Shown here in pieces: positions 20,743-36,338 of a stretch of DNA of 64,000 nucleotides (the first letter of the stretch is position 1; every line of letters starts with the position of its first letter). The notes beneath the pieces are model-generated. The model was not told where the DNA came from, ran no database searches, and saw only the letters and a program-made list of their open reading frames with translations. This DNA is from Devosia oryzisoli (lineage in GTDB: Bacteria > Pseudomonadota > Alphaproteobacteria > Rhizobiales > Devosiaceae): positions 62,001 through 126,000 of the forward strand of contig NZ_JACYFU010000002.1 in NCBI RefSeq assembly GCF_014837245.1, given 5' to 3'. The position numbers and the translations under genes were made by a program.

Positions 20743-21753
20743 GTGAAAACGCGCAGTTTCGTCAGTGCCCGCATGGTGGCCGAGCGCGCGGGCGTTTCCC
20801 GGTCGGCCGTGTCGCGCACCTTCACCGACGGGGCCAGCGTTTCGGAGGAAACCCGCCGCAAGGTGCTCGATGCCGCCGGAGCGCTCGGCTACCACGTCAA
20901 CCATCTGGCGCGCGGCCTGCGCGAGCGCAGCAACATCGTGTGCCTCGTCGTCTCCAACATGACGACGCCGATCCGCGCGCGCATGGTCGACATCATGACC
21001 CGCCAGCTGCAGGCCTCGGGCTGGATCACCATGGTGATCAACACCGAAACCGACACCGAAAGCGTTTCCAAGGCGCTGCGGCAGACCTTGAACTATCGCG
21101 CCGACGCCACGGTCGTGCTTTCCGGCACGCCTTCAGCCTCGCTGATCGAGGCGTGCCTAGCCAACGGGCAACAGGTGGTGCTGATCAACCGCGACGACCG
21201 GCTCAAGGGGTCGAGCACTCTGGCCGTCGACAATTCACTGGCCGGGCGCGAGGCCCTCTTCCTTCTGCAACGGGCCGGCTGCAAGCGGCTAGGCCTGGTC
21301 ACCTCCAACGCCCAAACCGCAAGCCTCGTCGAGCGCGAACGCGTCTTCGTGGACATCGCCCGGGCGCAGGGCCTCAACGTCACCGTCACCATGGCCGGTC
21401 CCACGACCTACGAATCGGGGGCCGATGCGGCGCGCCGGCTGTTCGGCCGGTCCAACGGCCCGGATGGCGTCTTCTGCGTCACCGATCTGCTCGCGCTCGG
21501 CTTCATGGACGTGGCGCGCGACGAGTTTGGTCTGCGCATTCCCGAGGATTTGTGCGTCGTCGGGTTCGACGACATCGAGCAGGCCGACTGGCGCGCCTAC
21601 CAATTGACCACCTTTGCACAGCCGCTCGAAGCGATGGCCACGCATGTGGTCGATCTGCTCAACGACTCCGAAGGCGCGAGCAGCGATCGCAAGCTGTTCG
21701 AGCCGATTCCGATCTGGCGGCGTTCGGTCCGACCCGGCGTAAAAACCGACTGA
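20743..21753 (+). CDS. LacI-family transcriptional regulator of phosphodiester module I
   Basis: A 336-residue LacI/GalR regulator. The helix-turn-helix is at about residues 8-33 (SARMVAERAGVSRSAVSRTF), with the hinge helix YHVNHLARGLRE, then a periplasmic-binding-like effector domain ending in FDDIEQADWRAYQLTTFAQP. I use GTG at 20743, which follows GGGAG at 20730; an ATG at 20668 would add a 25-residue non-conserved tail. It reads toward the importer genes starting at 22083. Palindromes of the form TGCAC-N4-GTGCA at 21756 and 21839 lie between and are probable binding sites. The hinge-type DNA contacts and effector are inferred. Confidence 0.87.
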   Translation: MKTRSFVSARMVAERAGVSRSAVSRTFTDGASVSEETRRKVLDAAGALGYHVNHLARGLRERSNIVCLVVSNMTTPIRARMVDIMTRQLQASGWITMVINTETDTESVSKALRQTLNYRADATVVLSGTPSASLIEACLANGQQVVLINRDDRLKGSSTLAVDNSLAGREALFLLQRAGCKRLGLVTSNAQTASLVERERVFVDIARAQGLNVTVTMAGPTTYESGADAARRLFGRSNGPDGVFCVTDLLALGFMDVARDEFGLRIPEDLCVVGFDDIEQADWRAYQLTTFAQPLEAMATHVVDLLNDSEGASSDRKLFEPIPIWRRSVRPGVKTD

Positions 21754-21755
21754 AA

Positions 21756-21773
21756 CGCTTGCACACGCGTGCA
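21756..21773 (+). promoter_or_regulatory. LacI-type operator, site A
   Basis: CGCTTGCACACGCGTGCA contains TGCAC-N4-GTGCA. An inverted near-copy (16 of 18 bases) is at 21839-21856. The centres are 83 bases apart, a spacing that would allow looping. It begins three bases after the regulator stop codon. The surrounding gap 21754-22082 has no gene. Confidence 0.6.
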
Positions 21774-21782
21774 TGACAGGCA

Positions 21783-21800
21783 CTGTCATCAAACCGTTAT
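21783..21800 (+). promoter_or_regulatory. Pho-box-like sequence (PhoB site)
   Basis: CTGTCAT-CAAA-CCGTTAT: the first half is a perfect Pho-box half-site, and the second, exactly 11 bases on, matches at 5 of 7 positions. The A-rich spacer is typical. It lies between the two LacI-type sites, about 280 bases before the binding-protein gene. The first half also forms an inverted repeat with ATGACAG at 21773-21779. Confidence 0.5.
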
Positions 21801-21838
21801 GCACGGAAACTAACAAGGCAGACGATTTTTTTGGCGAA

Positions 21839-33979: not shown

Positions 33980-34028
33980 CAGAACCGACTTACTGGCTCG
34001 GCCAACCTTTCCACGCAAGAAGCTCATC

Positions 34029-34775
34029 ATGACCAGTTCGCACATCACCGGCCCCAGCCGGGACGAGGTCCAGGCGCACCGCGGCGCCTCAGCCATCGCA
34101 CCCGAAAACACCCTCGCGGCGTTTCGCGCGGCGGCCGAACAGGGTGCGAAATGGGTGGAGCTCGACGTCGCTCTGCTCGGCGACGACACGCTGGTGGTCA
34201 TCCACGACGACAGCGTCGACCGCACCACGTCGGGAACCGGCAATCTCGGAGCGCTGACGCGGGCCGAGGTGGATCGGCTGGACGCCGGGTCGTGGTTCGG
34301 CAGCCAGTTCGCCGGCGAGAAGCTGCCGACTCTGGACGAGGTGATCGCCGAGCTCGGGCAGCTCGGCCTTTCCGCCAATGTCGAAATCAAGCAGCACCCG
34401 CACCACAAATCGCTCGACCAGCTGGTCGAGGCCGTGCAGCACGCTATCGGCAAGCGGGCTGCCGGTACGAACATCATGATCTCGAGCTTTGATCCGGACT
34501 GTCTCAGGGCAATGCACGCCCTCGAGCCGGATCTCGAAATGGCCATGCTCTGGGGACGCCCGCCGGAGGATTGGGAGGCTCAGCTGGCCGCCATTCCCGC
34601 CAAGACCATCCATATGCACTTCAAGGCGCTCTCCATCGGCCTTCTGGAGGAGACCACCAAGAAGGGCACCAAGGTGCGCGCCTGGACCTGCAACGATCCG
34701 GTGCAGCTCGTTTCCTTCTGGGACGCAGGGCTGACCGGCGTCATCACCGACAACCCGAAACTTTTCCTCGGCTAG
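34029..34775 (+). CDS. ugpQ: Glycerophosphodiester phosphodiesterase UgpQ
   Basis: A 248-residue cytoplasmic GDPD that splits imported glycerophosphodiesters into glycerol-3-phosphate and an alcohol. All family residues are in place: HRGAS with His17-Arg18, VELD with Glu44 and Asp46, VIHDDSVDRTT with His59, VEIKQHP in the middle and GVITDNP at the end. This is the classical type, unlike the divergent enzyme at 25991. It lies 49 bases after ugpC. The open frame upstream of ATG 34029 is a shadow of ugpC. Confidence 0.92.
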   Translation: MTSSHITGPSRDEVQAHRGASAIAPENTLAAFRAAAEQGAKWVELDVALLGDDTLVVIHDDSVDRTTSGTGNLGALTRAEVDRLDAGSWFGSQFAGEKLPTLDEVIAELGQLGLSANVEIKQHPHHKSLDQLVEAVQHAIGKRAAGTNIMISSFDPDCLRAMHALEPDLEMAMLWGRPPEDWEAQLAAIPAKTIHMHFKALSIGLLEETTKKGTKVRAWTCNDPVQLVSFWDAGLTGVITDNPKLFLG

Positions 34776-34794
34776 CACAGGTGCGGGACAGGAC

Positions 34795-35568
34795 ATGCTC
34801 TCGAGCCGGCAACGCGACATTCTCGCCCTGATCGAGACGGAAGGCGCTCAATATATCGAGCATCTTGCGGAGCGGTACGGCCTGACGACGCAGACCATCC
34901 GGCGCGACATCAATGCCCTGTGCGACCTCGGCTTTGCGCGGCGCTTCCACGGCGGTGTGGACCTACCGGTCGAGGGGCGCAACATCTCCGTCAACGCCCG
35001 CGCCACCCTCAACAGCGGTGCCAAGCAGCGGATCGCAAGCCATGTGGCCGCGGCCATCGAGCCCGGCTCCACCATTTTCATGGGCATCGGCAGCACCGTG
35101 CAATTCGTCGCTGCAGCGCTGCGGGAGCATCAGGGATTGCGGGTCGTCACCAACAATATCGACGTCGCGCTGACCCTCAGCGAAGCGCCCCAGGTCGAAG
35201 TGCATGTGAGCGGTGGCCTGTTGCGGCACAACGACCGGGACGTGGTGGGGTCGGACGCCTTGCGATTTTTCGAGAAGTTCTATGCCAATTACGCCGTGGT
35301 CGGCGCGGGTGCGCTGCATCCGCAAAAGGGCGTCCTCGACTACAGCCACAGCGAGGCGCAGATGACGACGACGCTTCTCGAGAACGCGCGCTCGCATTTC
35401 CTCGTCGCCGATGTCAGCAAGTGGACGCGCGACGCTTCCGTGCGCGTGGTGCCGTTTTCGCGCATCGCGTGCCTGGTAACCGATCGCCTGCCCGATGACC
35501 CCGCCGTTCGCCGGGCGCTCGACGAGGCCGGCACGGATGTGGTGTTGTGCGACGGGGTGGCGGCGTGA
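34795..35568 (+). CDS. DeoR/GlpR-family transcriptional regulator
   Basis: A 257-residue DeoR-type regulator. The N-terminal winged helix (1-57) has LAERYGLTTQTIRRDINALC and ARRFHGGV. The C-terminal DeoRC domain senses a phosphorylated sugar or glycerol-3-phosphate (GSTIFMGIGSTVQFVAAAL, VVTNNIDVALTL, VVGAGALHPQKGVLDYSHSEAQ). It sits in the ugp operon 19 bases after ugpQ and overlaps the HAD gene. GlpR-like palindromes in front of ugpB and of the Na/Pi cotransporter are its probable targets. Glycerol-3-phosphate as inducer is an inference. Confidence 0.88.
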   Translation: MLSSRQRDILALIETEGAQYIEHLAERYGLTTQTIRRDINALCDLGFARRFHGGVDLPVEGRNISVNARATLNSGAKQRIASHVAAAIEPGSTIFMGIGSTVQFVAAALREHQGLRVVTNNIDVALTLSEAPQVEVHVSGGLLRHNDRDVVGSDALRFFEKFYANYAVVGAGALHPQKGVLDYSHSEAQMTTTLLENARSHFLVADVSKWTRDASVRVVPFSRIACLVTDRLPDDPAVRRALDEAGTDVVLCDGVAA

Positions 35569-36338
35569 CCTATCATGGCCCAGCCCCCCTGCCCCGCGAC
35601 CTCGAAAAGGTCGAGATGTTGTTCACCGACATCGACGACACGCTGACCACCGAGGGGCGGCTGCTGCCCCAAACCTATCAGGCACTGTGGAGCCTGGCGG
35701 ACGCGGGCATCTCCATCGTCCCGGTGACCGGCGGGTCGGCCGGCTGGTGCGAGCACATCGTGCGCGTCTGGCCCGTGGCGGCGGTGATCGGCGAAAGCGG
35801 CGCCTTTGCCATGCGCTGGCGCAATGGCCGGCTCGAAACCGAGTTCTGGGAAGACGAAGCGCTGCAAAAGGAACGGCAGCGCGTGCATCTGGCGGCGGTT
35901 CGCGACCTGCTCGATGGCCAGTTCCCCATCGCGCACGACCAGGGTTTTCGCCTCGCCGACGTGGCGGTGGACATTGCCGGCGGTGCGCGCGCCTCGGTCG
36001 ACGCCCTGGCCGACAAGATCCGCGCCATCGGAGCAACGGTAGCCATCAGCTCCATCCACATCAACAGCTGGATCGGCGACTACAACAAGAAGGCGATGAG
36101 CGCCCGCCTGCTCAAGAGCATGGGCATGGACCAGAGCGAGGTGCCCGAGGCCACCGCCTTCGTGGGCGACTCGCGCAATGACGCGCCGATGTTCGGCTAC
36201 ATCCGCAACTCGTTCGGCGTTGCCAATATCCTGCCGATTCTCAATGACCTGCCGCACAAGCCGCGCTGGATTTCCGGGCGTCCGGCCGGTCTGGGGTTCG
36301 TGGATATCGCGCAGGCCCTGCTTGACGCCCGCCGCTAG
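35565..36338 (+). CDS. HAD-family phosphatase (Cof-like) of the ugp module
   Basis: A 257-residue HAD hydrolase. Motif I is LFTDIDDTLT with Asp22 and Asp24; the cap region is of the Cof/sucrose-phosphatase type; motif IV is FVGDSRNDAPMF. It should dephosphorylate a small cytoplasmic phosphate ester. I start it at GTG 35565, which overlaps the regulator stop (GTGA); another in-frame start lies 18 bases upstream. Its place after ugpQ and the DeoR gene suggests it handles a product of diester breakdown, parallel to the IMPase of module I. It ends in a four-base overlap with the convergent ATPase gene. Confidence 0.82.
   Translation: MTYHGPAPLPRDLEKVEMLFTDIDDTLTTEGRLLPQTYQALWSLADAGISIVPVTGGSAGWCEHIVRVWPVAAVIGESGAFAMRWRNGRLETEFWEDEALQKERQRVHLAAVRDLLDGQFPIAHDQGFRLADVAVDIAGGARASVDALADKIRAIGATVAISSIHINSWIGDYNKKAMSARLLKSMGMDQSEVPEATAFVGDSRNDAPMFGYIRNSFGVANILPILNDLPHKPRWISGRPAGLGFVDIAQALLDARR

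Follow-up and report, generated by a model that had tools for sequence, protein, structure and literature searches.

We analysed a 64,000-nucleotide stretch (hereafter the window) of the 3.68-Mb genome of Devosia oryzisoli, a member of a genus of soil bacteria (contig NZ_JACYFU010000002.1, positions 62,001 to 126,000; coordinates below count from the first letter of the window). Here, two gene sets predicted to act on organophosphates flank a gene for a sodium/inorganic phosphate (Na/Pi) cotransporter. The first set, module I (20743–27639, plus strand), encodes a LacI-family regulator and, after a 0.3-kb gap, a substrate-binding protein (SBP), two permeases and an ATPase of an ATP-binding cassette (ABC) importer, a GDPD-family phosphodiesterase and an inositol-monophosphatase-family (IMPase) phosphatase; from the SBP gene to the IMPase gene, gene ends overlap or are closely spaced. 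The second, module II (29747–36338, plus strand), consists of ugpB, ugpA, ugpE and ugpC followed by genes for a UgpQ-like GDPD, a DeoR/GlpR-family regulator and a HAD-IIB hydrolase. Between them, the Na/Pi gene (27802–29463) is read from the minus strand, towards module I and away from ugpB. Translations and family models bore out every gene that a preliminary description of this DNA had listed, each where it had been placed.

The importer of module I is of the Pot/Fbp type. Its regulator gene (20743–21753, plus strand; Pfam LacI and Peripla_BP) also has an in-frame GTG upstream at 20668. The SBP (22083–23234, plus strand) represents a conserved family and matches PF13416 (SBP_bac_8, 85.6 bits). 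Its leader, encoded at 22083–22160, is conserved and twin-arginine-like, with M-K-R-R-x-F in most aligned rows; such a leader is unusual for this importer type. Permease A, of Pot/Phn type (23231–24115, start approximate; PF00528), permease B (24118–24942; PF00528) and the ATPase (24954–25994; PF00005, TOBE_2) follow on the same strand, as do the diesterase, from a divergent GDPD subfamily (25991–26827; PF03009, 49.5 bits against a cut-off of 23.6), and the IMPase (26824–27639). The latter scores above the cut-off of its superfamily (PF00459, 170.9 bits against 27) and below that of the SuhB equivalog (148.8 of 332 bits). We ruled out the diesterase as an orthologue of UgpQ or of AccF, the agrocinopine phosphodiesterase of pTiC58, because the similarity is weak (24 bits with the UgpQ model; E 0.008–0.009 with AccF). 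Across 19 aligned sequences H19, R20, E46, D48, H61 and K126 are invariant, so the module I enzyme, which has all of the GDPD-family HR, ExD, H and later K residues that we take to be catalytic, is probably an active phosphodiesterase.

Module I is conserved as a unit in Devosia, in Rhizobiaceae and in part of the Rhodobacterales. Its GDPD (E below 1e-80) is present in 53 of 61 genomes of the genus, and the subfamily is rare elsewhere: at E 1e-20, with the query genome counted both times, it turns up in 2 of 385 genomes at class level and in 6 of 398 at phylum level. A scan of named genomes yielded 109 relatives, of which 80 were kept, mostly from Devosia and Rhizobiaceae; the nearest named relatives of the diesterase are mostly from Devosia. 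In most of these 80 neighbourhoods the genes for the SBP, permeases, ATPase and GDPD stay together, and in 72 the IMPase gene lies within 1.5 kb of the GDPD gene, three lacking it and five being cut by a contig end; one locus (L103) was scored as lacking it within 1.5 kb although a 36% IMPase match is present in the locus. Because the strand of the IMPase gene varies among relatives, its link to the GDPD gene is more than operon drag. A LacI 69–80% identical to that of the window is present in 20 of the 80 loci. The linkage of importer, diesterase and monoesterase is therefore conserved in relatives, an outcome in favour of the preliminary description, which would have counted its absence as evidence against its own reading.

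Some of these loci have additional genes. On a Rhodobacterales plasmid (L115:9883-11262), a gene for a PHP-domain (CehA/McbA-like) metallohydrolase follows the GDPD gene in the usual place of the IMPase gene, as if it were an alternative phosphatase for the second step. Another gene of this kind adjoins module I at L065:3264-4691, and its protein cluster occurs in six loci. In some relatives, SIS-domain genes lie upstream of module I (L059:492-4554 and related loci); one of them gives a weak glucokinase-regulator/MurQ-like Pfam hint and belongs to a cluster found in 10 loci.

The protein encoded between the modules (27802–29463, minus strand) combines a Na/Pi cotransporter domain (PF02690) with a PhoU domain (PF01895), which is the architecture of YjbB, and it is similar to E. 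coli YjbB over its full length (33% identity over 548 aligned positions). YjbB carries the annotation of a putative Pi export protein, and a Salmonella study uses it as a Pi exporter (PMC11389368). The preliminary description was thus right to place a Na/Pi cotransporter with a PhoU-like domain here, but the gene is on the minus strand and its product is more probably a YjbB-type Pi exporter than an importer. The gene settings differ: in E. coli, yjbB is flanked by metH and pepE, whereas the gene in the window is linked to organophosphate import genes. A partial Na/Pi-like match (34% identity, query positions 276–548) also lies outside the window at G000:C6:26294-27097, about 63 kb from the intact gene.

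Judged from family models, module II is a ugpBAECQ-type operon of the ordinary kind, with a DeoR regulator and a HAD phosphatase added. UgpB (29747–31072; 551 bits, cut-off 411), UgpA (31177–32061; 379 bits, cut-off 335), UgpE (32075–32923; 402 bits, cut-off 297) and UgpC (32927–33979; 523 bits, cut-off 432), all encoded on the plus strand, each score above their NCBIfam equivalog or subfamily cut-offs and occur in the order of the Ugp system, which upholds the earlier naming of this module. It differs from Ugp in three respects. The UgpQ-like GDPD (34029–34775, plus strand; PF03009, 170.9 bits) is below the UgpQ equivalog cut-off (198 against 264 bits); the DeoR/GlpR-family regulator (34795–35568, plus strand; PF00455, PF08220; PRK10906, 162 bits, below its cut-off of 331), the HAD-IIB hydrolase (35547–36338, plus strand; TIGR01484, 57.2 bits, cut-off 41.8) and the divergent Na/Pi gene are attached to it; and its upstream gap in this genome contains DeoR/GlpR-type operators and no Pho box.

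We then considered candidate regulatory sites, to none of which except the Pho-box-like element below is a strand assigned. The operator, Pho-box and intergenic comparisons used hand-picked loci, with some genomes under two locus identifiers (23 upstream regions for the LacI operators, 22 and 17 for the Pho box, and 20 intergenic regions); the intergenic set omits L166, in which ugpB is cut, and L145, which repeats the window. Two perfect copies of TGCAC-N4-GTGCA, 79 bp apart, precede the module I SBP gene and are the only two in the 3.68-Mb genome. We regard them as probable LacI operators 1 (TGCACACGCGTGCA, 21760–21773, at a conserved position) and 2 (TGCACTTGTGTGCA, 21839–21852). Among LacI-linked upstream regions, 20 of 23 have a perfect site and 20 of 23 have at least two sites with at most one mismatch. 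The gap between the Na/Pi gene and ugpB holds a LacI-type site with one mismatch (CGCACACGTGTGCA, 29536–29549), comparable sites being found in 6 of 19 relatives. Over the 20 intergenic regions the motif is perfect in four and within one mismatch in seven; 500 Markov control runs averaged 0.02 (at most 1) and 0.40 (at most 3), respectively. These gap sites occur in 7 of the 14 genomes in which LacI was seen beside module I and in 0 of 6 others (one-sided Fisher test, 0.044, relatedness ignored); four of those six have no full module I match and were not searched for LacI, two of the four being incomplete assemblies (62 and 85%), and locus L191 (G045) has about 1 kb upstream of the SBP gene. 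Given that one-mismatch matches occur at 65 other places in the genome, and that reversing the pattern still yields 43 places at one mismatch or fewer, the gap site of the window itself is suggestive only.

The same gap contains two DeoR/GlpR-type operators. The strict pattern is present on the Na/Pi side (ATGTTCACATGAGCG, 29508–29522) in 17 of the 20 intergenic regions, the other three showing one-base variants in the alignment, and on the ugpB side (ATGTTCAAATGAACAT, 29649–29664) in all 20; the ugpB-side site is the sole perfect match to the searched pattern in the genome. Most simply, both ugp and the Na/Pi gene would be under the control of the DeoR protein that the ugp operon encodes. We obtained no evidence of a wide DeoR regulon: among nine other one-mismatch places, genes were inspected at four, and these encode UvrA, an N-acetyltransferase, glutamine synthetase and an Opp-type permease.

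The three parts lie side by side only in this genome, with one caveat noted below. In the genus, some ugpB match is found in 58 of 61 genomes; linkage was counted for rows of at least 64% identity (50 genomes), rows of 33–51% being dropped. By this count, the module I GDPD gene is within 3 kb of ugpB in 1 of 53 genomes, this one, and within 60 kb in 3 of 53, so that the single block of the preliminary description is not conserved, and the distance counts likewise rule out the Na/Pi gene as a piece of a conserved three-part block. The caveat is G007 (locus L140): immediately after module I it carries a second UgpB-like importer, complete with ugpA- and ugpE-like genes, whose weaker UgpB-like gene (41%) is about 1.2 kb from the module I GDPD gene. 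Each module is joined by a Na/Pi gene separately, however. The Na/Pi gene and ugpB are divergent and 264–290 bp apart in 21 of the 50 genomes, and in 16 of 53 a Na/Pi gene is no farther than 5 kb from the GDPD gene of module I, with nearest distances of 0.9–1.4 kb. Fourteen of these 16 proteins are only 34–42% identical to that of the window, and were grouped as a second type by this identity and not by mutual alignment; a protein of this type encoded next to module I in L059 shares 45% identity with its pTiC58 counterpart and 35% with that of the window. In G023, an orthologue of the window's Na/Pi gene lies about 90 bp after the module I IMPase gene on the same strand, apparently inside the module I operon. 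Outside the genus, the Na/Pi gene and ugpB are within 4 kb of each other in 3 of 31 genomes that have both, two of the three being from the window's family. Because gene types and orders differ, we count four or five different arrangements of the Na/Pi gene with these modules, a count of layouts and not of separate origins. The single close pairing of the GDPD gene with ugpB would be accounted for if the two modules were unrelated neighbours joined by a chance rearrangement in this genome, a reading that we find doubtful given that the Na/Pi gene joins each module separately in other genomes and that LacI-type sites lie near it even where the modules lie apart.

Between the two LacI operators lies a Pho-box-like element (CTGTCATCAAACCGTTAT, 21783–21800, plus strand) with two mismatches to the Pho-box consensus. 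In the LacI clade, all 22 of the 22 upstream regions examined share its GTCAT core in alignment, and other clades have box-like versions of their own before module I. Sequences with at most three mismatches are found upstream of module I in 7 of 22 LacI-clade and 9 of 17 other regions, a level reached by 11 of 400 Markov sequences made from the window's own upstream region. Across the whole window, Pho-box-like matches are no more frequent than chance. Genome-wide, the pattern gives five matches (reversed-pattern control, two), of which the module I element is the only perfect one; the motif is not validated by other Pho genes, as none of the genes scanned beside the other matches is a known one. 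Phosphate control of module I is plausible on these patterns. In the Na/Pi–ugpB gap of this genome no Pho box was found, the best match having five mismatches, which is chance level, and 1 of the 20 intergenic regions has a Pho-box-like sequence with at most three, box-like sequences being present in the gap of a few relatives.

The preliminary description had the block recover phosphate and carbon. In the corresponding scavenging model, both modules would be Pho-regulated for phosphate gain and the Na/Pi protein would import Pi. The model draws on the Pho-box-like elements, which occur upstream of module I in several clades and exceed the Markov controls, and on the PhoB dependence of Ugp in Salmonella (PMC11389368). 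We consider it unlikely: the Na/Pi–ugpB gap contains DeoR/GlpR-type operators and no Pho box, a Pi importer co-expressed with a glycerol-3-phosphate importer would have no obvious use, and YjbB, the studied relative, exports. The operators of the gap make phosphate recovery as the sole purpose doubtful and are better fitted by carbon use with venting of Pi; what stands of the earlier claim is the element before module I, itself unproven.

Agrocinopine use encoded on pTiC58 is the closest characterised parallel to module I that we found; the preliminary description did not name it. As described, it involves the transporter AccA, the phosphodiesterase AccF and a putative phosphatase, AccG (PMC4526662). 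The acc operon shares with module I an ABC importer, a GDPD-family diesterase, an IMPase-family phosphatase and a repressor, and, like module I, it has a Na/Pi cotransporter gene beside it, which in the annotated record faces the other way. It differs in having an annotated oligopeptide-type importer and a DeoR-type repressor, whereas module I has an SBP_bac_8 protein, Pot/Phn-type permeases and LacI; AccF, moreover, is nearer to the UgpQ of this genome (E 1e-30) than to the module I diesterase. Because of these differences in diesterase and importer families, module I appears to work like acc without being a member of it. The shared enzyme classes and neighbouring Na/Pi gene, together with the many Rhizobiaceae carriers, several from plants, would suit import of an agrocinopine-like sugar phosphodiester made by plants or microbes in place of a glycerophosphodiester. 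Such a sugar phosphodiester is improbable as the ligand in view of the same diesterase and importer differences. The statement that module I is not a named system holds in the literature searched: no paper on module I, or on recruitment of Na/Pi genes to such operons, was among the matches listed, most subscription journals lying outside the search. We regard module I as new as a variant of an acc-like design, and module II as an already known type.

Taken together, the locus is best explained, at a probability of roughly 0.55, by two separately evolved organophosphate catabolic units sharing one Pi valve. In module I, the SBP would capture a phosphodiester for import by the ABC transporter, the GDPD-family enzyme would split it, and of the two products, an alcohol and a phosphomonoester, the latter would lose its phosphate to the IMPase-family enzyme. 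LacI would repress the module through the two operators until an inducer appears, and phosphate shortage may add to induction. In module II, Ugp would import glycerol-3-phosphate and glycerophosphodiesters, the UgpQ-like enzyme would cleave the diesters and a product may then be dephosphorylated by the HAD enzyme, while the GlpR-like DeoR protein would repress both ugp and the divergent Na/Pi gene. By exporting surplus phosphate, the Na/Pi–PhoU protein would allow these compounds to be used as carbon sources without Pi overload. More tentatively, we suggest that such operons repeatedly recruit a YjbB-type exporter as a vent under LacI or DeoR/GlpR, which would turn a phosphate-scavenging route into a carbon route, and that module I is an undescribed system with a ligand of its own, possibly an inositol phosphodiester.

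Several observations weigh against the shared-valve explanation. The direction of export rests on homology, and some Na/Pi proteins import. Of the 53 genomes that have the module I GDPD gene, 37 show no Na/Pi gene within 5 kb of it, and shared descent inflates the linkage counts within the genus. The LacI-type site in the gap is imperfect in the window and absent from 7 of 14 LacI-bearing genomes examined. Perfect sites precede the SBP gene also in 19 of the 80 loci, which show no LacI of at least 69% identity beside it, so the pairing of LacI with these sites is tentative; a LacI encoded elsewhere, or a diverged one, may serve such loci. Finally, the Pho-box-like element argues that phosphate gain, and not carbon alone, matters for module I.

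Our leading guess for the module I ligand is an inositol phosphodiester, for example glycerophosphoinositol. The Thermus thermophilus plasmid pTHTHE1601 encodes a relative of the module I diesterase (33% identity, E 4e-20) beside an ABC importer, a repressor and iol genes, and the binding protein of this iol-linked importer shares 31% identity, over 454 positions, with one from Rhizobium leguminosarum; together these are a weak pointer to such a ligand. The R. leguminosarum plasmid locus (L118:8965-17116) carries two different GDPD genes, one of them module I-like, with genes for an IMPase, a LacI regulator and the Thermus-related importer. The Thermus cluster differs from module I in its inositol catabolic genes, in having no IMPase annotated in the stretch shown and in its dissimilar binding protein. 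Points against the guess are the low identity of the Thermus GDPD and the absence of significant similarity between the module I SBP and either the Thermus or the R. leguminosarum binding protein. A single-sequence search of the PDB found no solved relative of the SBP, and a profile search gave marginal relatives only: iron- and polyamine-binding proteins, XylA and an unnamed ABC binding protein. Nor were iol genes recognised around module I among the neighbours sampled. The predicted SBP model is of moderate confidence, with a mean predicted local distance difference test (pLDDT) score of 69.5.

Nutritional use of comparable compounds is known. By description, and with no relation claimed, module I resembles XanT–XanP, which mediates uptake and cleavage of a sugar phosphodiester, xanthosan, by Xanthomonas (PMC12807533), and a marine bacterium that uses glycerol phosphates as a sole carbon source is described in another study (PMC12718374).

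Two further features adjoin the modules. Between the IMPase and Na/Pi genes (27671–27720), a tandem short repeat (ctcaccctgagcccgtcga) is followed by an inverted piece of the same sequence, an arrangement suggestive of a terminator or an intergenic repeat. A second sugar-type ABC importer (MalEFGK/Ugp-like; 36335–39185 and 39211–40878, minus strand) abuts module II and converges on the HAD gene; of the listed models, it exceeds no cut-off but that of the UgpC subfamily, which its ATPase passes.

Organophosphates are a large nutrient pool in soil, and bacteria that draw carbon from them have to get rid of the phosphate. The Ugp system of E. coli is held back by internal phosphate, a trans-inhibition for which our literature search gave no confirmation. 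If our explanation is correct, a Pi exporter that is genetically linked and under substrate control would overcome this limit directly, and the operators named here make the idea of a Pi vent testable at once. Export of Pi by such bacteria would, in turn, return phosphate to soil and plants.

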